A stretch of 64,000 nucleotides of DNA, taken from the NCBI RefSeq assembly GCF_000468755.1, contig NZ_AWEZ01000006.1, forward strand, positions 1 through 64,000. Direction: 5' to 3'. A model generated the notes under the pieces. The model searched no databases. It was not told the origin of the DNA and worked only from the letters and a program-made list of their open reading frames with translations. This DNA comes from Olsenella profusa F0195 (lineage in GTDB: Bacteria; Actinomycetota; Coriobacteriia; Coriobacteriales; Atopobiaceae). How positions within the stretch are numbered: the first letter of the stretch is position 1; each line of letters begins with the position of its first letter. This document shows positions 2,971 through 16,955 of this stretch, piece after piece. The translations under genes and the position numbers were made by a program.

Positions 2971-3645
2971 TCATGCAATCACACCATCGACAAGCGTGAC
3001 CACCCGGTCACACTTGGATGCCACACGCTCGTCATGGGTTGCGATGACGGCCCCCGCACCGTTGCGACAGGAGCTTCTCAGCAGTCCCATGACGACATCG
3101 ATCAGCTGGCCATCGAGGGCGGCCGTGGGCTCATCGGCGAGAATCAACCTTGGGTTGTTGACGAAGGCGCGAGCGATGGCGACACGCTGCTGCTGCCCGC
3201 CGGACAGTCTCGATGCGCGGCGGAAGGAGGTGGCCTCGTCAAGACCCACCTTCCCCAATGACTGACGGGCTAGGTCGTGCCTTCGTTGCCGTGGTTGGCG
3301 TGGCAGGGCATACTCCAGGGGAATCTCCACGTTGGCGATTCCGCTGATGTCGTCAACCACAACGTACTTCTGGTGGATGGTTCCCAAGAGGGAGTTGCGC
3401 AAGCGTGCGCGGTCCCGCTCGTCATCGGGGACGGCCCTGCCCACGAGGCGGACGGTACCCGTCGTGGGGCGCAGCATGAGTCCCGCAATGGACAGGGCCG
3501 TGGACTTCCCTGACCCTGACGGGCCTACGAGCGCCACCATCTCTGACTCATGGACCTCTAAGGTGATTCCGCGCAGCGCCTCCACTGGCTCTGGGTTGCT
3601 TCGGAAGGTCTTGGTGACGTCCTCGAGCCTTAGAAGGCAGTTCAT
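2971..3645 (-). CDS. ABC transporter ATP-binding protein (MacB/LolD type)
   Basis: This 224-residue cytoplasmic ATPase powers the two FtsX-like permeases encoded just upstream. It has a Walker A (VGPSGSGKST), Q-loop region, the signature LSGGQQQR, Walker B (LILADEPTAALD) and an H-loop (IATHDER). The start at 3645 has an AAAGGAGTGATC ribosome binding site; an open frame continues upstream inside the permease gene but is a shadow. It is the last gene of a minus-strand run that begins with two secreted proteins. In lactococcin-972-type loci such ABC systems accompany the bacteriocin and are thought to give export or self-protection, so I infer immunity or export here. Confidence 0.88.
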   Translation of the reverse strand: MNCLLRLEDVTKTFRSNPEPVEALRGITLEVHESEMVALVGPSGSGKSTALSIAGLMLRPTTGTVRLVGRAVPDDERDRARLRNSLLGTIHQKYVVVDDISGIANVEIPLEYALPRQPRQRRHDLARQSLGKVGLDEATSFRRASRLSGGQQQRVAIARAFVNNPRLILADEPTAALDGQLIDVVMGLLRSSCRNGAGAVIATHDERVASKCDRVVTLVDGVIA

Positions 3646-3650
3646 CCCGA

Positions 3651-4715
3651 TCACTCCTTTCCCGGGGACACCCTGCGCAAGAAGGTGAGGAGGAGCACCG
3701 CATAGGTTGGCAGCAGGCTGACCAGTGCGGCGAGGGCTCCCGCGCTCGCCGGCCCACCAACAAGCATCAGGACAAGGCACATCGGCACAGGGAGCGCCAG
3801 CACGATCATCGCGAGAAACGACGCCAGGCGGACGGTGAGTGCCAGTCTCGTGGCTCCGCACATGCGTCTGATGGTGAACCCCCTTCTCTCCCGCTCTAGG
3901 ATCTCCCGTGTGGTGGCCCCAAACGAGAGAAGCTCGAGGAGGAGAAATGCCGCCATCGAGATGACATACAGGCTCGCGCGCACCATCAACGAGGCAAACC
4001 TCTGAGGCTGTTCGATGGCAATGCGCTGTGGCACGAGGTAGAGTCCGCCCTTTGCCGCCTCCGCGATGTACTCTGCGATGAAGTCGTCTGACGCATCGAG
4101 AAACACTGCACGCAGCACGAGCTCCTCTTTGGCGTATACGTCAAGTTCCGAGAACTCCTCGGGCGTCACCTGCAGAACCTGATGGTCATCGAGCTCGATG
4201 CCGGCTGCGGACGGATCGAACCACACCGCGCCGCGGCGCAGCTTGCCCACGATGGGGATCTGCTTGCTCCCCAACCTCACCGATGAGGTCGGCGTGACGT
4301 CGGCCCCAACAAAGGCACCAGGGGCAGTGGGAGTCAGGCCGAGGTCCGGAAAGAGGCCGCCTACTCTCCCCCCGGCAACCAGGATGGTCGGTGCGACGAA
4401 GTCCTCGGGACTGTCCAGCCCCAGGTTATAGAGTACCGAGGAGTACGCCTCGCCCTTCTCTATCTTCTCGGACAGCATGCCGAGGAGGCGTGGGCTCGTC
4501 ATGCTCACCGATTCTATGGGGTAGAAGGGGGCGAAGGCGACGGCCCTCTCCCTCCTGATGGCCTCCCCGCCCCGGAGCACTTCCACCTGGGTGATGACAT
4601 CCCCCAAGACAAGGGACATCGCGAGGCAGACGAGTGAGAATATCAGGGTTGTTCCTACCAGCTCGCGCCAGCGGCGCAATGCCAGGGATGCCCCGCCTAT
4701 GACTTCGCCAATCAT
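3651..4715 (-). CDS. FtsX-like ABC permease, second subunit
   Basis: This 354-residue membrane protein has one N-terminal membrane segment (TTLIFSLVCLAMSLVLGDVI), an extracytoplasmic domain of about 200 residues, and three membrane segments near the C terminus (residues about 260-350). That is the MacB/FtsX layout. It starts at 4715 inside an ATGA overlap with the stop of the preceding permease gene, so the two are probably translationally coupled and form a heterodimer. The ATPase gene follows 5 bp after its stop. The substrate is unknown; the neighbouring lactococcin-972-like gene suggests bacteriocin export or self-immunity. Confidence 0.75.
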   Translation of the reverse strand: MIGEVIGGASLALRRWRELVGTTLIFSLVCLAMSLVLGDVITQVEVLRGGEAIRRERAVAFAPFYPIESVSMTSPRLLGMLSEKIEKGEAYSSVLYNLGLDSPEDFVAPTILVAGGRVGGLFPDLGLTPTAPGAFVGADVTPTSSVRLGSKQIPIVGKLRRGAVWFDPSAAGIELDDHQVLQVTPEEFSELDVYAKEELVLRAVFLDASDDFIAEYIAEAAKGGLYLVPQRIAIEQPQRFASLMVRASLYVISMAAFLLLELLSFGATTREILERERRGFTIRRMCGATRLALTVRLASFLAMIVLALPVPMCLVLMLVGGPASAGALAALVSLLPTYAVLLLTFLRRVSPGKE

Positions 4716-5701
4716 GTGCGGTCCCCGAGCGCGTTTGCTATCGACGAGCGCAAGGCCAGCCAGTTGAGGAACAACAGGGCCGCGGCCGAGAGGCCTGTCG
4801 TGAGGCAAAGCCATCCAACGGACCCCTCGGGAGGTGGTGACTGGCTCACCAGTTGCGTGAGCATGCCTGACGCCACCGCCCCCAGCAAGATGCCGACAAG
4901 GACGTGTGCGACGCAGCCCGCAAACTCCCTTCTGACCATGGCATGCGCGGAACCGCCCACCATATGGACAAGCCTGAAGTCATCGCTCCGATTGCCCAGA
5001 GAAGTCCTCCAGTAGACACCGACGGTCAACAGGCCAAAGGCAAGAAGCAGAGAGGCAATCACAAACATCGGGCTGCTTATCAGCTCGAGCCATACTGGAC
5101 TTGCACGTAAGGAGGCAATCTCCAGGCCAGAGGAGCGCAGGAAGGGGCGCAGCTCCTCGATGAGCCCCTCGGGCATGGACGAGAACGCATACGTGCCGGG
5201 GTCGAGGTGGTCTGCTGCCGCCGGCACGCAAACGGCCTGGAGGATTCCATTGCCACACGAGGAGTCAACGGTCCCGACGACGCGGGAGCCGTTTGGGAGG
5301 AGCGTGAGCGACGAGCCATCCTCCCACCTGTCCTCCGAGTAGCTGCCCTCGAACAGGATGGCCTTCGGCCTGTCTTCCGGCACCAGCATTCCTCGATATT
5401 GTGACAGCCAGGGGACGATGCCGCTGGGGTCCAGCACCTCCAAGACGGGGTGACCGTCACCGTTGCCATCGATGATGACGGCCACCCCATAGCGCGAGAG
5501 TATGTCCGCAAACTGCCCCGCAACGTTGTCGGACGCCGAATCCTCGTCCACTCCAGAGCTCCTCACACCCATCATGACAGGGTTGTCGCCAATTCCATGA
5601 GCCCTTGCGCTCCTGTCCTGGAGTGTCCATATGACGGACCAGGCCACGAACGAGGCAAGGACGCTCACAAGGAGGCTGGGAATCAGCGTGTTGCGGTGCA
5701 T
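4712..5701 (-). CDS. FtsX-like ABC permease, first subunit
   Basis: This 329-residue protein begins with a signal-anchor helix (LIPSLLVSVLASFVAWSVIW), continues with a large outside domain, and ends with three hydrophobic segments from about residue 210. It matches the next gene in layout but little in sequence. The start at 5701 has a GAGGAAG ribosome binding site 9 bp after the stop of the secreted-peptide gene. Many lactococcin-972 loci carry a single larger multi-helix immunity-associated protein; here the role may be split between two half-size permeases. That comparison is inference. Confidence 0.72.
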   Translation of the reverse strand: MHRNTLIPSLLVSVLASFVAWSVIWTLQDRSARAHGIGDNPVMMGVRSSGVDEDSASDNVAGQFADILSRYGVAVIIDGNGDGHPVLEVLDPSGIVPWLSQYRGMLVPEDRPKAILFEGSYSEDRWEDGSSLTLLPNGSRVVGTVDSSCGNGILQAVCVPAAADHLDPGTYAFSSMPEGLIEELRPFLRSSGLEIASLRASPVWLELISSPMFVIASLLLAFGLLTVGVYWRTSLGNRSDDFRLVHMVGGSAHAMVRREFAGCVAHVLVGILLGAVASGMLTQLVSQSPPPEGSVGWLCLTTGLSAAALLFLNWLALRSSIANALGDRT

Positions 5702-5710
5702 GGCTTCCTC

Positions 5711-6070
5711 TTACCAATAATAGAAGCCATAGTGATACTTCGTAGTGTATTGATCTCCCCAAAGGGGCGAATCCCAGACGCTGTCCGTACGGCTACGAAC
5801 TTGCGAGTCATAACGTGAGGATGCCTGAGACGTGTGCATCCTTCCCGTATCGAGAGAAGGTCCAGCTTTCCTGGTGAAACGATGGTAGCCTTGCTTTGCA
5901 TGTCGTCCACCGTCATTATATGAGGCCTGTATCTGAACATACCCGTTCCAGCGGGCTCCAGCAAGGTCTTCCCAGCATTTAGCATAGTTTTGGCCTCCTG
6001 CAAGGGCGGGCGCTGATACCATGACGATAGAGAGAGCCAATCCCGCAAGAATGGCGATAATTTTCCTCAT
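5711..6070 (-). CDS. secreted lactococcin-972-like peptide
   Basis: This 119-residue protein has a clear signal peptide (positively charged MRKII, hydrophobic core, cleavage probably after ALA at about 24). The mature part is rich in Tyr, Gly, His and Arg and ends YHYGFYYW. The aromatic C terminus, small size and following ABC genes resemble lactococcin 972, a non-lantibiotic bacteriocin that interferes with septum formation. Similarity in the middle is weak by eye, so the family call is tentative. A single Cys (CWEDL) sits near the mature N terminus. A GGAGGAGCG site precedes the start. Confidence 0.55.
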   Translation of the reverse strand: MRKIIAILAGLALSIVMVSAPALAGGQNYAKCWEDLAGARWNGYVQIQASYNDGGRHAKQGYHRFTRKAGPSLDTGRMHTSQASSRYDSQVRSRTDSVWDSPLWGDQYTTKYHYGFYYW

Positions 6071-6200
6071 CGCTCCTCCTTAACATAGAACATTCGCTGA
6101 TCGTGTCATCTGCCCTTGTCTTGCTCCTTACATGAAGCCCTGAAGACGTTTGATCATGCTAAGCCGGAGCCATACGCCCATTGTACCCTCCCTTCTTGAA

Positions 6201-6692
6201 TTACCAGCTATACATGGCAATATTCGAACAGAGGACTGTGGCACCATCTTGTGATTTTGAAAAGTAGTACGAATAGTATCCCGGACCAACATTTGTCCAG
6301 ACGGTCTCGCTATAGCCATTTCTGCGCACCGAAGAAGAGCCCACAAACGAATTATTCCGGTAGAGACTAATTGTAAATGTTCCATTTATAGGACAACTTG
6401 CGGTTAGCTTGATGCCGATGTTGTGACCATCAAAGTACCTTGCGCTGAGCCTATAGCTAATTGCAAAAGAAATTGATGTCCCGTCCCAAGATTGTGTAAC
6501 GAAGGAAGGAGGACTATCCGCAGAACTCAAATGGATGGCGGTTTCGATCGCGCTTTCGTTTTTCATAGCAGAGTCAGCTGTCGATTCCATTGCGCCTACC
6601 CTTTGTGAAGTGAGAAGCTCAAGTGCGAGGACGGGCATAAGTAGTAGGACGAACAGCAGTGGTTTGTTGTGGCTTAGCCTACGAGTTGCCAT
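6201..6692 (-). CDS. secreted protein of unknown function
   Basis: This 163-residue protein starts with a Lys/Arg-containing N terminus and a hydrophobic segment (LLFVLLLMPVLALELL), a signal peptide or signal anchor. The exported part is Ser/Thr/Tyr-rich, apparently beta-rich, with two Cys (in ASCPING and VLCSN) that could form a disulfide. Its aromatic tail (IAMYSW) resembles the end of the neighbouring lactococcin-972-like peptide. It lies between the LuxR-type regulator and that peptide on the same strand, so it may be a second bacteriocin, a partner peptide or a signal. Its GC is lower than the surroundings. I do not recognise the family. Confidence 0.6.
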   Translation of the reverse strand: MATRRLSHNKPLLFVLLLMPVLALELLTSQRVGAMESTADSAMKNESAIETAIHLSSADSPPSFVTQSWDGTSISFAISYRLSARYFDGHNIGIKLTASCPINGTFTISLYRNNSFVGSSSVRRNGYSETVWTNVGPGYYSYYFSKSQDGATVLCSNIAMYSW

Positions 6693-6786
6693 ATGCTTGC
6701 CCTCTTCGATGTGAGGAGTGCTTTCGTAGAGGACAATAACAAGGTGAGGTCTTGAAGTCTGTCATCCCAAGGGATGCAATCTGCGT

Positions 6787-8742
6787 CTAGCCTGTCAAGC
6801 CGGCATCATGTTGAAGCAGCTTCCTCAGTTCCCGGACGTTGTGCACGCCAAGCATCTGATAAGTGCGCAACCTATAGGATTTGACCGTTGCCGTCGTCGT
6901 CTGACAGGTGGAGCAGATTTCTCGCGTGCTCTGACCTAGGGCGATGCCCAAAGCAACGTTTGCCTGGAGTTCTCCGAGCCCGCGCCCCTCCAGGTATTTC
7001 AGGGCTCTTTCGATTTGTCCGTGCGGTGGATGTCTGGGGACACGGGCGGCAAAGACTAGTTCAATGGTGCAGACCAGGCTGATGACGATGGAAGCCAGGC
7101 AACCGCATAGGGGGATGTCCGATGGAGGCATGTTGCCTATCTGTACGGAGAAAATGAAACCGAGCCCAACTAGCAGTACCCCATCGACGCCTCTGACAAG
7201 AAACGCGTCCATGCCCGCGCACAAGACTTTGGCAGCATGTGTGGTGAGGGGCGAATCCCTCGCCGGCCGCACGATCTCCATCCCAAGGGCAGTGAGACAC
7301 AGACATAGGCAAGGTACCGTCCAGAACAGATACTCTGGCGACTGGATCCATGACAGATAGACGGTGATTGGAAGCGAAAGTGCACAGAGGGGGAGGACCG
7401 CAGAGGCAAACGGCAGACTAGCATCATGTGGCGGGTTCGCATTTCTTGGGGGTCTGGTGCCGAGGGTGCATCCTGAGGCAAGTCTCACGACGGATATCAC
7501 GACCAAGACGAGTCCTGCCATCCATGCTAGATAACGAGGCATGTCGATGACCGTCGTTCCCCAGATTTCAAGATCGACGGGGGGCCTTAGAAGAATGACC
7601 GACAGGAGAGCGAGAACCCATATGATCCTTCGAAGAGTGCTGGTAGGGAAGTCCTCCCTCGACGCCTCATCGGTTTTCTCGGCTGGAGACGGGTGTCTTT
7701 CCCCCTGTGCGCCCGCGAGCGATTGGAATTCCCGTTTCCCATCCACGCCAAGCTTTTCATAGCCACGCTTACGGAATGTCGCGACGGTTGATGTAGCGAT
7801 ACCCAGGCGTCCGGCAATCATCCGCGCGGGTTCGTCTGTCAGCGTGTGTGCGAGAACCTCGAACTCCCGATTCGTCAGGGCACCATCGTTATCGATGGTG
7901 CGAAGGGTTGCCCTGGCCTTGTCGAAATCATCCGTAGTTGCGCTGCCCATCTCCAGCTCCCCTTTCCGTCTGGCGCGGAATGCAAGATAGGGCAGAGCAG
8001 CCAGAACGAGCAAGGAGAGCGGGAGAAGCCATTCAGCAGAGGGTATATAGCTGCAAAAACAGTAGTAGACATCACCTAGGACAAATGACTTGAGCGCAAG
8101 AAACGTCAGTTGGCCACAGAGGAGAAGCATGGCCTGAGGGGGGGAGGGCCGCCAGTCTGACGCTGCCCACTGCGAGGTAAGAGCCGCAACCATGCCAAAT
8201 GTGCCGCACAGGATAAGCGACTCTAGAGCTGAGAAGACACCCATCACTTTCGAAAGCAGGACAGATGCCGCTGGCCACCCAATGCCTATGCAGAACAGCA
8301 GTGGTCTGGACGAGCTTGGCGCTCCGCTGTCCTTCGCAGGGGAGGAAAGTGCCCACCCAACAGTAGCGAGGATGAAGCACGAGAACTCAACGAGTGAGAG
8401 CGAAGAATTCGCCTTGATGGCAAAGGTCGATTCCAACGGCCCTCTTCCGCGAACGATTGCAATCGTCTCCGCTGCTGCGAGGACGAACATGACGTAGAAG
8501 CCCAAAAGAACAACGATACGTCTTGCCCTCTTTAGTCGTGCGGTTCCTTTGGCTGTTGAATGGGCCTCGCATCTGTCCCATAGCACAACACATGCAGCCA
8601 CGATGCAAAGGGCGAAGACATTGCACTGGCCAGGAATAGCGGGAGCTGAAATGTTTTGTGCGATATAGGGCATGCCGGCCAGTCCCGCAAGCCAGAGGTG
8701 CCACTTCCGCTGCGATAGCGCGTGTCTGTCTCTCTGTAACAT
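6787..8742 (-). CDS. membrane regulator with two LuxR-type DNA-binding domains
   Basis: This 651-residue protein has the order: about eight hydrophobic segments (1-265), a LuxR-type helix-turn-helix at about 285-340 (LTNREFEVLAHTL, then IATSTVATFRKRGYEKLGV), a linker, about six more hydrophobic segments (about 370-560), and a second LuxR-type domain at about 590-645 (GLGELQANVALGIALGQST, then TATVKSYRLRTYQMLGV). It reads as two membrane-anchored LuxR units fused head to tail. Single units of this kind are common in Coriobacteriia; the double form is unusual. I chose the ATG at 8742, which has TTGGAG before it; an ATG at 8769 is in frame but weakly preceded. It probably controls the secreted-peptide/ABC genes downstream on the same strand. 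Confidence 0.8.
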   Translation of the reverse strand: MLQRDRHALSQRKWHLWLAGLAGMPYIAQNISAPAIPGQCNVFALCIVAACVVLWDRCEAHSTAKGTARLKRARRIVVLLGFYVMFVLAAAETIAIVRGRGPLESTFAIKANSSLSLVEFSCFILATVGWALSSPAKDSGAPSSSRPLLFCIGIGWPAASVLLSKVMGVFSALESLILCGTFGMVAALTSQWAASDWRPSPPQAMLLLCGQLTFLALKSFVLGDVYYCFCSYIPSAEWLLPLSLLVLAALPYLAFRARRKGELEMGSATTDDFDKARATLRTIDNDGALTNREFEVLAHTLTDEPARMIAGRLGIATSTVATFRKRGYEKLGVDGKREFQSLAGAQGERHPSPAEKTDEASREDFPTSTLRRIIWVLALLSVILLRPPVDLEIWGTTVIDMPRYLAWMAGLVLVVISVVRLASGCTLGTRPPRNANPPHDASLPFASAVLPLCALSLPITVYLSWIQSPEYLFWTVPCLCLCLTALGMEIVRPARDSPLTTHAAKVLCAGMDAFLVRGVDGVLLVGLGFIFSVQIGNMPPSDIPLCGCLASIVISLVCTIELVFAARVPRHPPHGQIERALKYLEGRGLGELQANVALGIALGQSTREICSTCQTTTATVKSYRLRTYQMLGVHNVRELRKLLQHDAGLTG

Positions 8743-8863
8743 TGTGGCTCCAACCCCCCCGTGCTCCATTCTCGATTTTCACCGTCGACGCCGATTTTGG
8801 TTGACGGGATGCTCATGAACCGACGGGAAAGAGAGGGGCCCTGCAAACCGCCAGACTTGTCCA

Positions 8864-9604
8864 TTAGCGCGACCTTTCTCTTCTGCGCACCTTGAGTGCT
8901 CGCAGCGCCCTCCGGGCCCACCCCTCGTCGTGGACCTCGCGGATCGGGATGCCGCGCCTGTCGAGGCCCCTGCGCAGGCGGGCCCTCTCCTCTTCCGTCA
9001 TCCGCGCGAGCGGGACGGGCACCGCGGGGGTGATGCGGGCGCGTAGCCACGTTCGGTCAGTTGTTGCGAACAACCCTGATCGCCCACCCAGGAGTAGTAG
9101 CGCGCGTGTTTCTCCTCAGATGGAACCCGTGACCTCGACAAGCTCGTGACGACCGTCGACTGGCGTGAATTTCCGGTATGAGACAAGGGCCCAGGAGATG
9201 ATTGATTTTCGGGGCCTCTTGCCGATTGGTGGCCCATACTTGACGAGAGAGACGTCGACGTTGTCATCGCTGACCGACACATCAAGTATGGGATTACTCC
9301 CGTGCCACTCCCCGTCGAGGAGGTGGAGCCAAAGCCTCTGAAGGCGTACGGCACCAAGCCAGGTGCAAAAGCTTGCCAGCAGCTCAAACAACAGAATAAT
9401 CTCTGCGGGTATGAGCAGAATCACCCAAAAGGAGACGAGCGGGTCCTCTGCGACCAGCACGGGCTCTGCGAGCTTGAGGGTCACCCATGGCACGGAGAGC
9501 AGCGCGGACACCCCCATGGGGAGCTTGGAGATGGTGAACCTGGCGTAGAACCGCCGGAAGCCCTCGTCGAGGGCGAAGCCGGCCGTGATGGGCTCGCCGC
9601 GCAT
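8864..9604 (-). pseudogene. membrane immunity-like gene, broken by one TGA
   Basis: The frame starts at ATG 9604, immediately after the stop of its paralogue, and runs to a stop at 8864. It is interrupted only by a TGA at 9118-9116. The TGA aligns exactly with a Trp codon of the paralogue: TEAVWGKDMALILMGG against TGSI-stop-GETRALLLLGG. After the TGA the frame stays open for 83 codons and still matches the paralogue, including the shared segment GIPIREVHDEGWARRALRAL. So this is a tandem duplicate inactivated by a single TGG-to-TGA change, apparently recently. A truncated 162-residue product with the membrane helices could still be made. Confidence 0.82.
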
Positions 9605-10366
9605 CTAGGTCCCCCTCCCCAGCTTCGAGCTGAGTGCCCGCAGCGCCCTGCGCGCCCATCCCTCGTCGTGGACCTCGCGGATCGGGATGCCACGCTTCTC
9701 GAGCGTGCGCCGCAGGCGCTTCCTGTCCGCCTCCTCCATCTGCGCAAGTCCAATGGGTACCGCGGGGGTCACGCGGATCCTTCGGGCATAGCCACCACGA
9801 CCCCAGGTAATGGGGCACATTGACCAGCCACCCATAAGAATGAGAGCCATGTCCTTTCCCCAGACGGCTTCCGTCATCTCTTCCAATGGGTACGTGTTTG
9901 CCAAGGGGGGATAATCTTGAAAATAGTATTTCATTGCCTTGATACGCTTTTTATCTATCACACGAGACGTTTGCAAATTTGTAGCATCTCGAAAATGGTC
10001 TACCACAACCGTTGCATGATTGCTCTCTATGGTCACTTTCACAAATGGGTCACCCAAATAGAGCTCGTCTCCTGACAAACGCATCCATATTTGCTGGCGC
10101 GATCTTAGGCTCAGCCAGGGGAGAAGCACCATTAGCAACTCGAAAGCAAAATATAACGTGAATAAAATTGAAAGGGGGAAAAGGCATGAGAACGATATCG
10201 CTTCCTCAGACAGATGAAAGAGTTCATAGACGATCAAAAGAACCCCGCATGAAAGGCATGTCCCCAGAACGATCATGACCTTCTTTGAGATACTAAATCT
10301 CGTATAGAATTGTTGGAAGCTGCTATCGAAAGCAAATTGGGATCTAATGAGGGTATGCATGTGCAT
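9605..10366 (-). CDS. two-helix membrane protein, candidate LXG-toxin immunity protein
   Basis: This 253-residue protein has two hydrophobic segments in the first third (KVMIVLGTCLSCGVLLIVY and a longer one through LLMVLLPWL) and a soluble domain ending in a charged helix (REVHDEGWARRALRAL). No enzyme motif is visible. It overlaps the 3' end of the LXG toxin gene by 23 bp and is followed by its own broken duplicate. Membrane proteins directly downstream of membrane-active LXG toxins usually protect the producer, so immunity is inferred from position and topology. The start is uncertain: ATG 10366 has AAAGGG nearby, and ATG 10387 is an alternative. The 5' half is AT-richer than its neighbours. 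Confidence 0.6.
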   Translation of the reverse strand: MHMHTLIRSQFAFDSSFQQFYTRFSISKKVMIVLGTCLSCGVLLIVYELFHLSEEAISFSCLFPLSILFTLYFAFELLMVLLPWLSLRSRQQIWMRLSGDELYLGDPFVKVTIESNHATVVVDHFRDATNLQTSRVIDKKRIKAMKYYFQDYPPLANTYPLEEMTEAVWGKDMALILMGGWSMCPITWGRGGYARRIRVTPAVPIGLAQMEEADRKRLRRTLEKRGIPIREVHDEGWARRALRALSSKLGRGT

Positions 10367-11828
10367 GCCGCCCTTTTGGCTGATCATATTTACCCGTCAC
10401 CCAATCCCTCACAGGACTGCTTGTTACTTTATGTACAGCGTTGCTCCCTCCGAGCGACATTGCAGTACCATAAATGAGGCCAGCACTGGCACCGATAAGG
10501 GTTCCTATCCCCGGTGCGAGACAAGTTCCAGCAATTCCAAGTCCAATTGCAAGACCGACACTCGTCCCATCGACCCCAACCCTCTCGAGGCCCTCTGTTG
10601 TGGCCTCTATCCTACGCGAGCGCTCATCCAGCCAGAAGTCATCCTCATACTCGTCTGTAGCGGCGAGAAAGGTGTCACCCGCGACAAAGACAGCCGCTAT
10701 CGCATGTCCTGCAGTACCAAATGCTGCTCCAAGTTTCTCAGAGCATAGCTCAGGTGCCTTATCCGCAAGGTATTCCAATACCCCCTGCTCCCCTCCTACA
10801 TATGTGCCTGCTGCGGTGAACGCGTTAGACGCATCGCTTCCCTCGTCGTTCTCATCGTATCCCGCAGCCGACAACAGAGCGTTCCAGCTCACCCCCGTGC
10901 CATCCAGAATCTCTCCCAACTCATCGCTGCACTGGGGCGTAAGGTAACCGTCCTCGTCCCTCGAGCTGGTCACGAGTCCAGACTGCGCGAGCGCGGCAAG
11001 GGCGGCCTTCCGCGCGTCCGGTTCCATCGCCATGATCTCCTCGAGCGCGGCCTCGAGCATCTTCTTTGCGTCCCGGTACTGCTGGGAGTCCTCAGGGAAG
11101 GAGCGCATGATGCACATGTCGCGCTGCACCGACTGGGTGTTGACGGTGCCATCCGCGTTCATGGGTTCGCTCGGCTGGGTGTTCTCGGCGACATGATTAA
11201 GCTCGTCCGTCCACCCATCATCCCAGTCGTGCCAGGAGCTTGTGGTGGGGTCAAAGGTGCTTCCCGTCAGCGCGGAGACCCCGTGGGCGATGGCGTCCCT
11301 GTAGCCAGAGAGCTCGTCCCCCTCGTAGACGTGGTTGGTCTCCTCGCAGTACGAGTAGATCTTCGAGAGCATGGCACCGGCCTTGTCCAGCTTCTCCAGG
11401 TTTGTGCCCATGCGCTCGCTGGCATCCTGGAGCTTGGCGGCATTATCGGCGGATGCGTTATTCGGGTCGTATGCGTCGTTGAAGTCTTCCTCTGCGGCGT
11501 CATAGAGCGCTTGGGCCTCACTCTGCATCTGCAGCCACTCCTCCTCGTTGGCTGCCTCGAGGCTGCCGAACCGAGAGTTGAGCGCATTGAATACCGTGCT
11601 GTCCCCCATGCTGATGAGCCCGTAGGCATAGATGATTGCAGAAAACAGCTTGTCGTAGGCGCCTACGCGCTCCTTGGCCGCTCCCCAGCCCGAGCCCTGG
11701 AGCGATGCGTCCTTGACAAAGTTGCGCGCGGCTTCCTGCAGGCGCTCGCACTCTTCGCTGAGGGACTTCATGCTGCTTGTCTTGTCGTTGATCTGCTTCT
11801 GAACGGCTGCTGGTCGTATCTGAATCAT
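10344..11828 (-). CDS. LXG-family type VII secretion toxin with glycine-rich C terminus
   Basis: This is a 494-residue protein. The N-terminal ~200 residues are helical and carry an LXG-type motif near residue 42 (LQGSGWGAAKE), the export domain of type VII secretion effectors. The middle is acidic. The C-terminal region has no catalytic motif but contains a glycine-zipper-like hydrophobic stretch at about 423-460 (GLAIGLGIAGTCLAPGIG and beyond), as in membrane-permeabilising LXG toxins. Start 11828 is preceded by GGGGAGG. Upstream is a small helical protein, downstream the presumed immunity gene. No type VII secretion machinery is in this window, so export genes must lie elsewhere. An ionophore-type antibacterial toxin is my inference. 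Confidence 0.72.
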   Translation of the reverse strand: MIQIRPAAVQKQINDKTSSMKSLSEECERLQEAARNFVKDASLQGSGWGAAKERVGAYDKLFSAIIYAYGLISMGDSTVFNALNSRFGSLEAANEEEWLQMQSEAQALYDAAEEDFNDAYDPNNASADNAAKLQDASERMGTNLEKLDKAGAMLSKIYSYCEETNHVYEGDELSGYRDAIAHGVSALTGSTFDPTTSSWHDWDDGWTDELNHVAENTQPSEPMNADGTVNTQSVQRDMCIMRSFPEDSQQYRDAKKMLEAALEEIMAMEPDARKAALAALAQSGLVTSSRDEDGYLTPQCSDELGEILDGTGVSWNALLSAAGYDENDEGSDASNAFTAAGTYVGGEQGVLEYLADKAPELCSEKLGAAFGTAGHAIAAVFVAGDTFLAATDEYEDDFWLDERSRRIEATTEGLERVGVDGTSVGLAIGLGIAGTCLAPGIGTLIGASAGLIYGTAMSLGGSNAVHKVTSSPVRDWVTGKYDQPKGRHAHAYPH

Positions 11829-11863
11829 ACAGGCCTCCCCTGCATCCCCAACCATGCGATTGG

Positions 11864-12118
11864 CTAGTACGAGCCCGCCTGGCTCTCGTCCCACGAGTCG
11901 AAGGTGGCGGCAGCCGAGCGAATCGCCTCGGCATCCGCGTTCGCCGCCTCGACGAGCGACCTCATGGCATCTATGAGGTCCCAGGCGGTGGCGTACACAC
12001 CGCTCTCGGCCAGGGTGTTGTCATCATCGACCCCGGCGAGGTCACTGATCTCAAGCTGCGACTCGAGCGCACTTGCATATGACTCGGCAGTGTCGGAGTT
12101 GGACGTGGTCGTGCACAT
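11864..12118 (-). CDS. small helical protein, LXG-toxin partner (WXG100/Lap-like)
   Basis: This 84-residue acidic, Ala/Ser/Asp-rich protein is almost entirely predicted helical and ends with an FDSWDESQ stretch. Size, position 35 bp before the LXG gene and helical-hairpin character fit the small partners that bind the LXG domain for targeting to type VII secretion. The start at 12118 has GAGG at good spacing; two upstream in-frame ATGs (12130, 12148) would add 4 or 10 residues. No true WXG turn is visible near the middle, so the exact family is open. Confidence 0.6.
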   Translation of the reverse strand: MCTTTSNSDTAESYASALESQLEISDLAGVDDDNTLAESGVYATAWDLIDAMRSLVEAANADAEAIRSAAATFDSWDESQAGSY

Positions 12119-12184
12119 GGGGCACCTCATGCATTCTCTGACGGGCACACACGGAGAGAGCGGTACAGAAGCATTCCCAGCGAT

Positions 12185-12716: not shown

Positions 12717-12747
12717 GTCCTCCCTCCTAGAATGCAGGAGGGAGGAC
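12717..12747 (+). promoter_or_regulatory. perfect 12-bp hairpin enclosing the licR-like ribosome binding site
   Basis: GTCCTCCCTCCT (12717-12728) is the exact inverse complement of AGGAGGGAGGAC (12736-12747), with a 7-nt loop. The right arm is the Shine-Dalgarno sequence of the regulator starting at 12753. In mRNA the arm pairing would hide the ribosome binding site. It could also be a DNA operator; the perfect pairing at the binding site favours translational control. Confidence 0.7.
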
Positions 12748-12752
12748 ATTCC

Positions 12753-14747
12753 ATGGGAGATGGCGCGTGGAAAACGATGGCGTACCTTCTCGGCCACGAT
12801 GGGGCGACGGCGCATGCCCTCGCGCAGGCCTTGGGTGTGAGCACGCGCACCGTTCGATCGTATGTGCGGCGTGCCAACGAGCTCTTCTCTCCCGTGGCGC
12901 GCATATCCTCCCCACACCATCAGGGGTACCGCGTGCAGGTGTATGACCAGGCTGCCTTTTTCGACCTCATCTCCCAGTATCAGTCCCGGCAGGAGGGGGC
13001 ATGCCCCAGCTCGCCGCGCGATCGCCAGCGTCTGATCGCCCTGCGTCTCGTGGCTGGTGACGACTGGGTCGCCATCGCGGAACTTGCGCAGGCGACGTGC
13101 GTCTCCGTGAGGACCCTATCGGCCGACCTGCATGTCGTGGAGTCCATCCTGCGCTCTTGCCGTCTCGCCCTGGACCGCTCGCATGGGACCGTCCGCGCCG
13201 TGGGTGGTGAGTTCGACCGGCGCCTCTGCCTGGCCGCCCTGGCGGAAAAGGGGACCCCTGAGGGCATGCTGGACGATGATCCGCTGCGCAGGGTCTGCCG
13301 GGCCATGGAGACCCCTGTGCCACCCGCCCCCTCTGACGGCACTCCACCATCCTTTACCACGGATGCCTTGGCCAAGCTCGTCTCCACGGAGCTTGCCCGC
13401 GAGGGTATCGTGGCGAGTGCCCTCTCCCTGCGCGCCCTGGCCGTCCATGTGGGCATCGCGGTCCTGCGGGTGCGCGCGGGCCATGCCATCCCGCCCATGC
13501 TGAGCTTCCCTGAGCGAAGCTCTGCCATGAAGGAGTACGCCTGTGCAGGTCATATAGCTGCGGCGGTAGGGGAGCGCTATGGCGTGAGGCTCGGTGAGGA
13601 CGAGGTAGCCTACCTGACCATACACCTCGCATCCAAGGAGACCGTTTGCGAGCATGCCACCCAGGATGAGCCAGCCGGCGCGCTCGTCGTCTCCGACGAG
13701 GTCTGGCGGATGGTGGCCCGCATGCTCGAGGTGGTGTGGCACAACTATGCGATCGACCTGCGCCAGGACATCGAGCTGAGGATGAACCTTGCCCGCCATG
13801 TGGCGCCGCTCATCGTGCGCCTGCGACACCACATGTCTGCCACGAATCCCCTGATCATCGACATCAAGGACCGCTTCCCGCTTGCCTACCTGATGGCCTT
13901 GGATGCCTCCTCGGTGCTGGGGGAGCAGGTGTCCCATGCCCTCACGGATGAGGAGGTGGGCTATCTCGCCCTCGCGTTCGCCCTGGCCCTCGAGCGACGA
14001 AAGGCTGGTCGGCCCCGAAAGAACGTCCTGCTTGTCTCGGCCTCCGGTGCGACGGGCGCGAGCCTCCTGGAGCAGCAATGCCGCTCGGCCTTCTCCCCCT
14101 ACCTGGGCGAGGTCACGAGCTGTGACCTGATGCAGCTCGGCGATATCGATCTGTCGGACGTCGACTACGTCTTCACGACGGTGCCCCTTGGCCGTAGGCT
14201 TCCCGTCCCCGTATGCCACGTAGGGGTGTCGCTCACGCAGGACGTCGTCGCGCGGGTGCGCGCCGACCTGGAGTCCGCAGGTGGAGGCAGGGATGCGCCA
14301 GACATCTGTGCACCATCGATACTGGACGGAGGGCTCTTCCTCCCTCACCTGGGGGTGCACGACAAACGTGGGGCACTCGATGCGCTCTGTGCCCACCTGC
14401 GGCATCACGAGGGACTGGATGAGCGTTTCGATTCCCTCGTCGAGAGGCGTGAGGAGGTCGCGCGCACCACCTTTGGCAGCGGCGTCGCCTTCCCCCATCC
14501 CATCACGCCCATAGGTAGCCGCACGGTTGTCTGCGTCGGGCTGCCCGATGAGCCGATCGACTGGAGTGGGGAGGAGGTGCGCGCCATCTTTCTGGTCTCT
14601 CCGGCTTCGACGCCGCCGGGCCCGGGGGACGATGGCGCCCGCAGGGCCCTCGTCCGTCTCATCTCGGACCGCCAGGCGATGAACGAGCTGCTGCGTCATC
14701 GGGACTACGGGACCTTGGTGCGGCTGTTCGCAGAGCATATCGAGTAA
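12753..14747 (+). CDS. LicR/MtlR-type PTS-responsive transcriptional activator
   Basis: This 664-residue multidomain regulator has an N-terminal winged helix (LAQALGVSTRTVRSYVRR), a second HTH-like segment (CVSVRTLSADLHVVE), two PRD domains in the middle with conserved His, an EIIB-like domain (about 420-510; its usual Cys position is not obvious) and a C-terminal EIIA-like domain with His582 in GVAFPHPIT. Such proteins activate adjacent PTS operons and sense sugar by phosphorylation through the PTS. The next genes are EIIA, EIIB and EIIC of a lactose/cellobiose-type PTS, its likely targets. I chose the ATG at 12753 over 12732 because the strong GGAGGGAGG lies between them. Confidence 0.88.
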   Translation: MGDGAWKTMAYLLGHDGATAHALAQALGVSTRTVRSYVRRANELFSPVARISSPHHQGYRVQVYDQAAFFDLISQYQSRQEGACPSSPRDRQRLIALRLVAGDDWVAIAELAQATCVSVRTLSADLHVVESILRSCRLALDRSHGTVRAVGGEFDRRLCLAALAEKGTPEGMLDDDPLRRVCRAMETPVPPAPSDGTPPSFTTDALAKLVSTELAREGIVASALSLRALAVHVGIAVLRVRAGHAIPPMLSFPERSSAMKEYACAGHIAAAVGERYGVRLGEDEVAYLTIHLASKETVCEHATQDEPAGALVVSDEVWRMVARMLEVVWHNYAIDLRQDIELRMNLARHVAPLIVRLRHHMSATNPLIIDIKDRFPLAYLMALDASSVLGEQVSHALTDEEVGYLALAFALALERRKAGRPRKNVLLVSASGATGASLLEQQCRSAFSPYLGEVTSCDLMQLGDIDLSDVDYVFTTVPLGRRLPVPVCHVGVSLTQDVVARVRADLESAGGGRDAPDICAPSILDGGLFLPHLGVHDKRGALDALCAHLRHHEGLDERFDSLVERREEVARTTFGSGVAFPHPITPIGSRTVVCVGLPDEPIDWSGEEVRAIFLVSPASTPPGPGDDGARRALVRLISDRQAMNELLRHRDYGTLVRLFAEHIE

Positions 14748-14802
14748 GGACGACGGCGAGGGCCGAACGAGGGGTCTCGCGCACGAGGAGAGGAGAGTGG
14801 CC

Positions 14803-15144
14803 ATGCAGGATGACGAGTCGGTGGCAATGGGGCTGATCGTGCATGGGGGCAATGCGCGCAGCGATGCGCTCCAGGCGATCTCCAAGGCACGGGCGGGGGA
14901 CTTCGAGGCGGCCGACGCCTTGCTTGCCCATGGCGCACGGGAGCTTGCCGTGGCCCACGACATCCAGACCGACCAGCTCTCCGCCGAGGCGCGCGAGCCC
15001 GGAGCGACAGAGATGACACTCCTGATGGCCCATGCGCAGGACCACCTCATGAATGCCATGACGGTCCATGACCTGGCGACCCAGATGGTGGAGCTGTGCC
15101 GCCAGCTGGTCGGCGGACAGACGCAAGGAAAGGGGAGACGATGA
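14803..15144 (+). CDS. PTS lactose/cellobiose-family EIIA
   Basis: This 113-residue, all-helical phosphocarrier passes phosphate from HPr to the EIIB encoded next. His77 in LLMAHAQDHLM matches the phosphorylated His of the Lac-family EIIA, and the length is typical. The start is ATG 14803 behind GAGGAGAGGAGAG; GTG 14797 is a less well spaced alternative. Its stop overlaps the EIIB start by ATGA, indicating translational coupling. Located in the cytoplasm. Confidence 0.88.
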   Translation: MQDDESVAMGLIVHGGNARSDALQAISKARAGDFEAADALLAHGARELAVAHDIQTDQLSAEAREPGATEMTLLMAHAQDHLMNAMTVHDLATQMVELCRQLVGGQTQGKGRR

Positions 15145-15470
15145 GGAAGGTCTATCTGTTCTGTAGCGCGGGCATGTCCACGAGCATGCTGGCCCAGAGG
15201 ATGCAGGCGGTTGCCGACGAGCACGAGATCCCCGTCAGGGTCGACGCGTTCTCGGTCAAGCAGGTGGATGACATCTGTGCAAGCGATCACCCCGACGTCA
15301 TGCTGATAGGGCCTCAGGCGCGGTTCATGTACGACTCCATCCACGAGCGTCACCCCGACATCCCCTGTGCCGTGATCGATCAGGACGACTACGGGAGCCT
15401 CAATGGGGATCGTGTCCTTAGGCAAGCGATCTACCTGCTCAAGCATGAAAAGCAAGAAGGAAGGGCATAG
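15141..15470 (+). CDS. PTS lactose/cellobiose-family EIIB
   Basis: This 109-residue domain protein has the phosphocysteine loop near its N terminus (Cys8 in LFCSAGMSTSML), the hallmark of cellobiose-type EIIB. It takes phosphate from EIIA and gives it to the sugar during transport by EIIC. The gene overlaps EIIA by 4 bp, and the EIIC gene follows 12 bp after its stop. Confidence 0.9.
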   Translation: MRKVYLFCSAGMSTSMLAQRMQAVADEHEIPVRVDAFSVKQVDDICASDHPDVMLIGPQARFMYDSIHERHPDIPCAVIDQDDYGSLNGDRVLRQAIYLLKHEKQEGRA

Positions 15471-15482
15471 GAGGGAGTTCAC

Positions 15483-16955
15483 ATGAGTTCGCACACGCGC
15501 ACGACTTCCGCTGACGGGACGGGAGGCCTCTTGGGGCGAATGGAAAGCTGGCTCATGCCCCTTGCGGAGTCTGTCGGCAAGAACAGGTACCTGCTGACCC
15601 TCAGGGACTCGTTCTCGATGATCATGCCGCTTCTGATCATCGGCTCCATGTTCACCCTGGTGGCGAGCTTCCCCATCACGGCTTGGACGGACTTCCTGGC
15701 CGCAACGACTGTCGGAGACTACACGCTCAAGACGCTCATCGCCATCCCTGCGAATGCGACCGTCTCGTTGATGTCCATCTTCATCACCTATAACATCGGC
15801 CTCAACTTCGCGGGCTATCTCGGCCTCAAGGACCGCCCGTCCGCTGGCATCGTCTCCCTGGCGAGCTGGCTCATCCTGATGCCGCAGATCACCAGCTTCA
15901 CTCCCGAGGGCGGGGACGAGACCTTCGAGGTGGCGAGCCTCAATCTCGAATGGCTGGGCGCCAAGGGCGTCTTCATCGGCATCATAGCGGGCTTCCTCTC
16001 GGTCGCGCTGTACGCCTGGTGCGTCCGGAAGGACTGGACCATCAAGATGCCTGCGGGCGTGCCACCCGTCGTGGCACGCTCGTTCTCCGCGCTGATACCC
16101 ATGGCCGTCACCTTTGCCGTCGTGTGGGTCGTGCGCGTGGTGTTCGTCCTCACACCCTGGGGGGACGCGTTCACCTTCGTCTATGCGATCCTGCAGCTGC
16201 CCCTGCAGCACGTGGGAGGCACCGTCTGGTCGCAGGCGCTCGTGTACCTGTTCGCCCACTTCCTGTGGTTCTTCGGCATCCATGGGACCAACATCACCGA
16301 TGCCGTCTACAACCCCGTGCTGATCCCGCTCTCGCTCGAGAACGCGTCGGCCCTCCAGGCCGGGATGGCGCTTCCCAACGTGATCAACCAGCAGTTCGAG
16401 CAGCTCTTCGCCACCTATGGCGGTGCTGGCTCGACGCTGTCTCTGCTGATCGCCGCCCTCATCATATGCCGCTCCAAGCGCATCCACTCCCTCGCGAAGA
16501 TGTCGCTCCTGCCGGGCATCTTCGAGATCAACGAACCAGTCATCTTCGGCCTGCCCATCGTCATGAATCCCGTCATGGCCATTCCGTTCCTGCTGGTGCC
16601 GATGGTCAACATCTTCGCGACCTACGCCGTGATGGCCGCGGGCCTCGTCCCCATCTGCAACGGGACGCTGCTGCCCTGGACGGTGCCGCCCATCGTCTCG
16701 GGCTTCCTCTGCAGCGGGTGGCAGGGGGCCCTCTGGCAGGCGCTGATGGTGGCCGTGGGGGTGCTCATCTACCTGCCCTTCATCGGTGCGCTGGACAGGA
16801 TGTACCTGAAGGAGGAGGCCGAGGCCGCCAAGGTGGCGTCCCCGCCTGCGCAGGGTGTGGGTGGCTCGCCGGTGGAGGCACACGCCTCGCGCGAGGCCTC
16901 TGACATCGATATCGACTCGATCGACCTCGATGCCGCCGACCTCAAGGACCTGTAG
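15483..16955 (+). CDS. PTS lactose/cellobiose-family EIIC permease
   Basis: This 490-residue membrane permease has about ten hydrophobic segments and the family features FGIHGTNITDAVYNP and IFEINEPVIFGLPIV. It carries out uptake of an oligosaccharide with phosphorylation by the partner EIIB. It ends with a roughly 50-residue acidic tail (repeated Asp/Ile: DIDIDSIDLDAADLKDL) not usual for the family. The DUF871/MupG-type enzyme gene follows, so the likely substrate is a disaccharide cleaved inside by that enzyme. Confidence 0.9.
   Translation: MSSHTRTTSADGTGGLLGRMESWLMPLAESVGKNRYLLTLRDSFSMIMPLLIIGSMFTLVASFPITAWTDFLAATTVGDYTLKTLIAIPANATVSLMSIFITYNIGLNFAGYLGLKDRPSAGIVSLASWLILMPQITSFTPEGGDETFEVASLNLEWLGAKGVFIGIIAGFLSVALYAWCVRKDWTIKMPAGVPPVVARSFSALIPMAVTFAVVWVVRVVFVLTPWGDAFTFVYAILQLPLQHVGGTVWSQALVYLFAHFLWFFGIHGTNITDAVYNPVLIPLSLENASALQAGMALPNVINQQFEQLFATYGGAGSTLSLLIAALIICRSKRIHSLAKMSLLPGIFEINEPVIFGLPIVMNPVMAIPFLLVPMVNIFATYAVMAAGLVPICNGTLLPWTVPPIVSGFLCSGWQGALWQALMVAVGVLIYLPFIGALDRMYLKEEAEAAKVASPPAQGVGGSPVEAHASREASDIDIDSIDLDAADLKDL

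Follow-up and report, generated by a model that had tools for sequence, protein, structure and literature searches.

The window, the whole stretch of 64,000 nucleotides of Olsenella profusa F0195 that was analysed, shows on its minus strand a gene encoding a membrane regulator with two LuxR-type helix-turn-helix domains (HTH-A and HTH-B) and, directly downstream on the same strand, the gene of the secreted protein pep2, followed by pep1, two genes encoding permease-like proteins and a gene encoding a MacB-like ATPase (Table 1). The regulator ORF is a single open frame with no internal stops. The ATG at 8742 is in-frame codon 10 and shows a Shine-Dalgarno-like GGAG 5 nt upstream, better than that of 8769, which makes the limits given by the initial annotation (6787-8742) plausible. 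That annotation had also described one polypeptide with about eight transmembrane (TM) segments, a LuxR HTH, about six more TM segments and a second LuxR HTH, an arrangement which the ORF, Pfam and the family-averaged hydropathy bear out. An IS481-family transposase (NF033577, 247.6 bits vs a cut-off of 224) is encoded on the plus strand (1755-2762), close to where the ABC operon ends.

Table 1. Coordinates of the regulator, its domains, the predicted element and the downstream genes in the window.
Feature	Position	Strand	Remarks
Tandem membrane-LuxR regulator CDS	6787..8769	-	660 aa with ATG 8769 as start, 651 aa with ATG 8742, the more likely start
First membrane block, about 8 TM segments (residues 24-264)	7978..8700	-	Hydropathy and charge alternation, 19 homologues
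HTH-A (GerE/LuxR class, L-S/T-x-R-E), cytoplasmic loop between membrane blocks	7726..7881	-	PF00196 42.5 bits; AF2 pLDDT 72-86; residue table
Second membrane block, about 6 TM segments (residues 382-572)	7054..7626	-	Hydropathy and charge alternation, 19 homologues
HTH-B (distinct GerE class, G-L-x-E-L/T-Q-A replacing L-T-x-R-E), C-terminal	6826..6960	-	PF00196 26.2 bits; AF2 pLDDT 66-85; residue table
Upstream operator element TTGACA (predicted)	6793..6798	-	Overlaps the last regulator codons
Middle operator element TGCATCC (predicted)	6772..6778	-	Fixed 14 bp before the box
Operator box TGACAGAC (predicted)	6757..6764	-	Overlaps the -35 position
-10-like hexamer TATTGT	6733..6738	-	Exactly 18 bp after the box
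Secreted protein pep2 (163 aa, signal sequence, C-terminal MYSW)	6201..6692	-	Family not yet described, accompanying regulators of this type; no Pfam family
Second small secreted protein pep1 (119 aa)	5711..6070	-	Signal-like N-terminus; no Pfam family
ABC permease-like half 1	4712..5701	-	FtsX only at E 0.13 (insignificant); G002 homologue directly behind the G002 operator
ABC permease-like half 2	3651..4715	-	FtsX only at E 0.48 (insignificant)
MacB/LolD-like ABC ATPase	2971..3645	-	PF00005 96.8 bits; MacB 5lj9 E 6e-46

Topology and HTH domains of the regulator

Hydropathy shows 6+6 segments when the regulator sequence is taken alone and 8+6 when it is averaged across 19 homologues, the latter in agreement with the eight and six segments initially proposed. 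In the same 19 homologues, the bias in charge alternation between inside and outside places the N-terminus, HTH-A (central loop) and HTH-B (C-terminus) all in the cytoplasm. The AlphaFold2 model of the membrane part, obtained from an input of five sequences only, has pLDDT below 50 and is unreliable, and no fold match was found for this part. A fold similar to the MFS, with 12 TM segments in a 6+6 arrangement and the HTH in the central loop, was rejected, given the 8+6 family average and the lack of a fold match. Comparison of the two membrane halves with each other gave nothing convincing (best 20 columns, probability 21%), and both halves gave hhalign probabilities below 1% against nine single TM-LuxRs other than DadR; the TM domains of the DadR-type family are mutually diverse.

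Both HTHs score above the curated cut-off of Pfam GerE (PF00196, 23.5 bits), and in both regions AlphaFold2 shows a four-helix HTH after a lead-in helix (helices 300-354 and 600-655, pLDDT about 66-86). The closest solved structures to HTH-A are StyR, GerE, EvgA and others of NarL type. Fold-defining residues are kept in both domains, so that neither HTH has lost them in all homologues, the situation which the initial annotation had named as contrary to its proposal. Pfam and NCBIfam scans found no receiver domain in the regulator, which sets it apart from two-component response regulators.

Relatives of the regulator and arrangement of the HTH pair

A first search of named genomes with a single-protein query gave no match, and a three-row alignment query recovered four loci. 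The searches cover 60 relatives, 140 genomes of the family and 396 genomes of the class, with many full-length matches. About 60 tandem ORFs were found over the Coriobacteriales, and the HTH-classifying script counts 61 two-HTH ORFs in the fetched loci, a few of them near-copies. Tandems of the same kind are also present in family f10 and a longer version in family f2. Beyond the Coriobacteriales, a search of 296 genomes of the phylum with one profile, which distant tandems could escape, gave partial matches only, mostly across the HTH-A region. The tandem regulator lineage is found in Olsenella-like bacteria and, with this number of ORFs of the same architecture, the fused tandem is not rare in the Coriobacteriales, contrary to what had been supposed. 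The accompanying statement that single TM-LuxR proteins are typical of Coriobacteriia agrees with PMC9734109; a Pfam scan of this genome, within its sensitivity, detected no such protein.

The 45 first HTHs are split from the 45 second HTHs by one change on the tree; grouping either HTH set together is not rejected, on 66 columns with weak tree detail. Profiles of HTH-A and HTH-B were built separately, and iterated profiles merged both classes. The order A then B is kept in every later-fetched protein with two detected HTHs, and HTH-A and HTH-B appear to be two old classes always arranged in this order. A tandem duplication of one TM-HTH unit is not supported, since the halves show no convincing similarity and the HTHs are separate classes. 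The initial description as two TM-HTH units therefore holds for the two membrane blocks and the two intact HTHs and does not hold for a repeated unit, the halves being dissimilar and the HTHs separated into N- and C-terminal sets by a single change.

The membrane parts are rearranged in several relatives. In L013, L032 and L034 the A/B pair is adjacent and located before or after a single membrane helix, and in L028 a membrane domain is placed only between HTH-A and HTH-B. Since the order is kept while the membrane parts are dissimilar or rearranged, the conserved unit is the pair of HTHs, A before B, combined with membrane domains that vary, and not a TM-HTH repeat. In L032 (4718-5962) and L034 (5329-8181) a single membrane helix comes after the adjacent pair and leads to an extracytoplasmic region, which in L034 is PASTA-like by eye. 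L126 (5051-6997) contains a relative with membrane segments on either side of HTH-A and no detectable HTH-B. A shorter tandem type, with about 4+4 membrane segments and a different downstream gene, is present in L006, L077-L081, L107-L109 and L134; these loci show their own conserved sequence 3' of the stop codon, unlike the TGCATCC/TGACAGAC element described below.

Promoter-like element and downstream genes

The 3' end of the regulator gene shows a conserved promoter-like element, TTKACA-N13-TGCATCC-N7-TGACAGAC-N18-NANNNT, a predicted feature that is new here. The box is found in 13 distinct loci, with a TGCATCC-like sequence 14 bp before it and, at about 33 bp, a TTKACA that is less well kept. 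NANNNT is present at one offset in all 13 anchored loci and in at most three of the 13 at any other offset, counts which include related species, are not independent and thus inflate the conservation. The compound pattern has 13 matches in the 140 family genomes, 12 of them beside a tandem regulator or its remnant, and none in the reversed control. In the window, TGACAGAC alone occurs at chance level, so the claim of an element depends on the compound pattern; general promoter and terminator scans of the operon also gave chance level. The box overlaps the regulator stop codon in seven loci and lies 24-37 bp beyond it in six, which indicates conservation at the DNA level, independent of the coding sequence.

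Regulator-adjacent sites outside the defining set also carry the hexamer: GACACT in G002, GATGAT in G133, TAAGCT in L069 and TAATGT in L005. L069 and L005 have degenerate boxes, and G002 and G133:C10 have regulator remnants. The hexamer is absent at three box look-alikes remote from regulators. In L037 (about 5443-6400, G002) the first part of the regulator continues directly into the conserved element, with its -10 kept, and in L175 (around 5527, G133) the regulator gene is in pieces and the element and its -10 are kept. A divergent subgroup, L033, L060 and L063, shows a different box with a hexamer at +27, seen by inspection and hence weaker evidence, and both of its HTHs are divergent as well. 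Since several tandem regulators have no element or another one, and the 3' flanks of other clades differ, the element covers one clade. Part of the box occupies the -35 position at normal spacing; the -10 is good and no consensus -35 is found at 17 bp, which suggests an activator-dependent promoter.

The pep2 family has 13 members in the 140 genomes, 12 of them directly behind a tandem regulator; the thirteenth is at a contig start, and the regulator of the same genome ends near another contig end. The AlphaFold2 model of pep2 is poor (pLDDT 56), and its beta-sandwich matches are weak and unusable. In G002 the element runs directly into the same permease and ATPase genes, and other tandem loci show comparable runs encoding a secreted protein, permeases, an ATPase and a membrane-anchored protein.

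Possible mode of action and related systems

The regulator probably switches on the adjoining exported-protein and transporter genes via the promoter-like element. The reading which we favour, and hold to be reasonably probable, is that of a membrane-embedded one-component activator whose two unlike HTHs read a composite site and thereby activate the neighbouring operon. Both membrane blocks (8 TM and 6 TM) would anchor the regulator and presumably sense an envelope-level signal, while the cytoplasmic HTH-A and HTH-B would jointly read TTKACA ... TGCATCC ... TGACAGAC at the 3' end of their own gene. The composite site overlaps the -35 region of a promoter without a good -35, and RNA polymerase would be recruited there, turning on the secreted protein or proteins, the two permease-like proteins and the ABC ATPase. 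The sequences show the architecture, the topology bias, the two HTH classes in constant order, the conserved element with its constant distance to the -10, and the association with regulator and secreted protein; binding of the element, activation, the involvement of both HTHs and the sensing of a signal are what we infer from them. A composite DNA element also fits the suggestion, made at first sight of the gene, that the chain offers built-in pairing of half-sites. For the Coriobacteriales lineage as a whole, we propose tentatively, with somewhat less than even confidence, that a single chain combines two old and non-interchangeable HTH classes with membrane domains that they surround or lie between. 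Each class would read a different element of the same asymmetric operator, and the promoter of the secreted-protein/ABC operons would thus be tethered to the membrane.

Rather unlikely, in our view, is that HTH-A alone binds DNA and that HTH-B is a dimerisation or protein-contact module, the regulator then being an ordinary membrane-LuxR with a C-terminal addition. Where typical GerE domains have the pair R-E, HTH-B shows L/T-Q, and the later lysine is frequently missing from it (residue table), so it might not bind DNA; its Pfam score is lower (26 vs 42 bits) and the relative L126 retains HTH-A only. Against this, the recognition-helix core T-V-x-S-Y-R is kept in HTH-B (T 88%, V 93%, R 84%, L 88% and G 84% in 45 domains), almost every relative has retained HTH-B, and the DNA element consists of several parts. 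It is improbable that another regulator or an alternative sigma factor reads the element, which would only accompany the cluster, the tandem protein then having its targets elsewhere or controlling a partner as a sensor. In favour of this, the association is positional only, and the 3' flanks differ in tandem regulators from other clades; against it, a genome has essentially one or two copies of the element, adjoining this regulator, and L033, L060 and L063 diverge in both HTHs and box together. We give an equally low likelihood to the regulator repressing the operon until, for instance, a secreted peptide lifts the repression. The sign of regulation is not readable from sequence and a box at -38 to -31 could occlude RNA polymerase; however, a good -10 without consensus -35 at 17 bp resembles activator-dependent promoters, and the characterised single TM-LuxRs are activators (PMC9734109). 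The joining of two genes by an assembly or annotation error, which the initial annotation had considered, is refuted by the open frame without stops, by the same ORF in a second genome of this species, complete and on a single contig (G078), and by about 60 tandem ORFs elsewhere, and has practically no probability left.

Among described regulators, those of the 10-12-TM LuxR family with a single HTH (DadR, CadR and HcdR) come closest. This family of membrane-bound LuxRs of gut Coriobacteriia was recognised only in 2022, with one HTH each, and DadR, HcdR and CadR activate neighbouring genes (Dong et al. 2022, PMC9734109). No description of a tandem membrane-LuxR was found in the open literature searched, a partial coverage that includes passages of that paper. 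Like the family, the regulator combines a multi-pass membrane domain and a cytoplasmic LuxR/GerE HTH in one chain, belongs to the class Coriobacteriia and adjoins its presumed targets. Unlike the family, which has one N-terminal 10-12-TM domain and one C-terminal HTH, it shows 8 TM, HTH, 6 TM, HTH, and its neighbours are secreted-protein/ABC genes instead of those of catechol and other metabolic enzymes. The HTH fold is shared with NarL/FixJ-type response regulators and GerE, but the regulator is membrane-embedded, lacks a receiver and has two non-identical HTHs per polypeptide. The operon resembles those of lactococcin 972 type in its gene order, with small secreted proteins first and then membrane proteins and an ATPase like MacB, and the ATPase resembles the bacteriocin-export ATPase TIGR03608 (E 1.8e-43), but at 148.4 bits vs a cut-off of 254.85. 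An identity of pep1 or pep2 as Lactococcin 972 was rejected, since, unlike in those operons, neither matches a described bacteriocin family in Pfam at E up to 10. Two unlike HTHs can sit in one membrane chain in fixed order, and the lineage brings with it a predicted operator, promoter and target operon, so that the working of a DNA-binding domain between two membrane blocks becomes directly testable and a predicted regulatory circuit is offered for undescribed secreted proteins of Olsenella-like bacteria.

The window also contains a membrane protein (9605-10387) with repeated copies in the genome (window 8864-9604, minus strand, and L082 10431-12716). In the same-species G078 three copies are open, whereas the window copy adjacent to the regulator is split (9116-9604 and 8864-9073), apparently by a frameshift. 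Upstream of these repeated proteins, the minus-strand region 10344-12148 encodes a small helical protein and, after it, one of 516 aa whose N-terminus is long and helical; by eye they look like an LXG-type secreted protein and its helper, with no convincing family match. On the plus strand, the region 12732-16955 shows a gene encoding a 671-aa BglG/PTS-domain regulator-like protein, followed by apparent PTS components.
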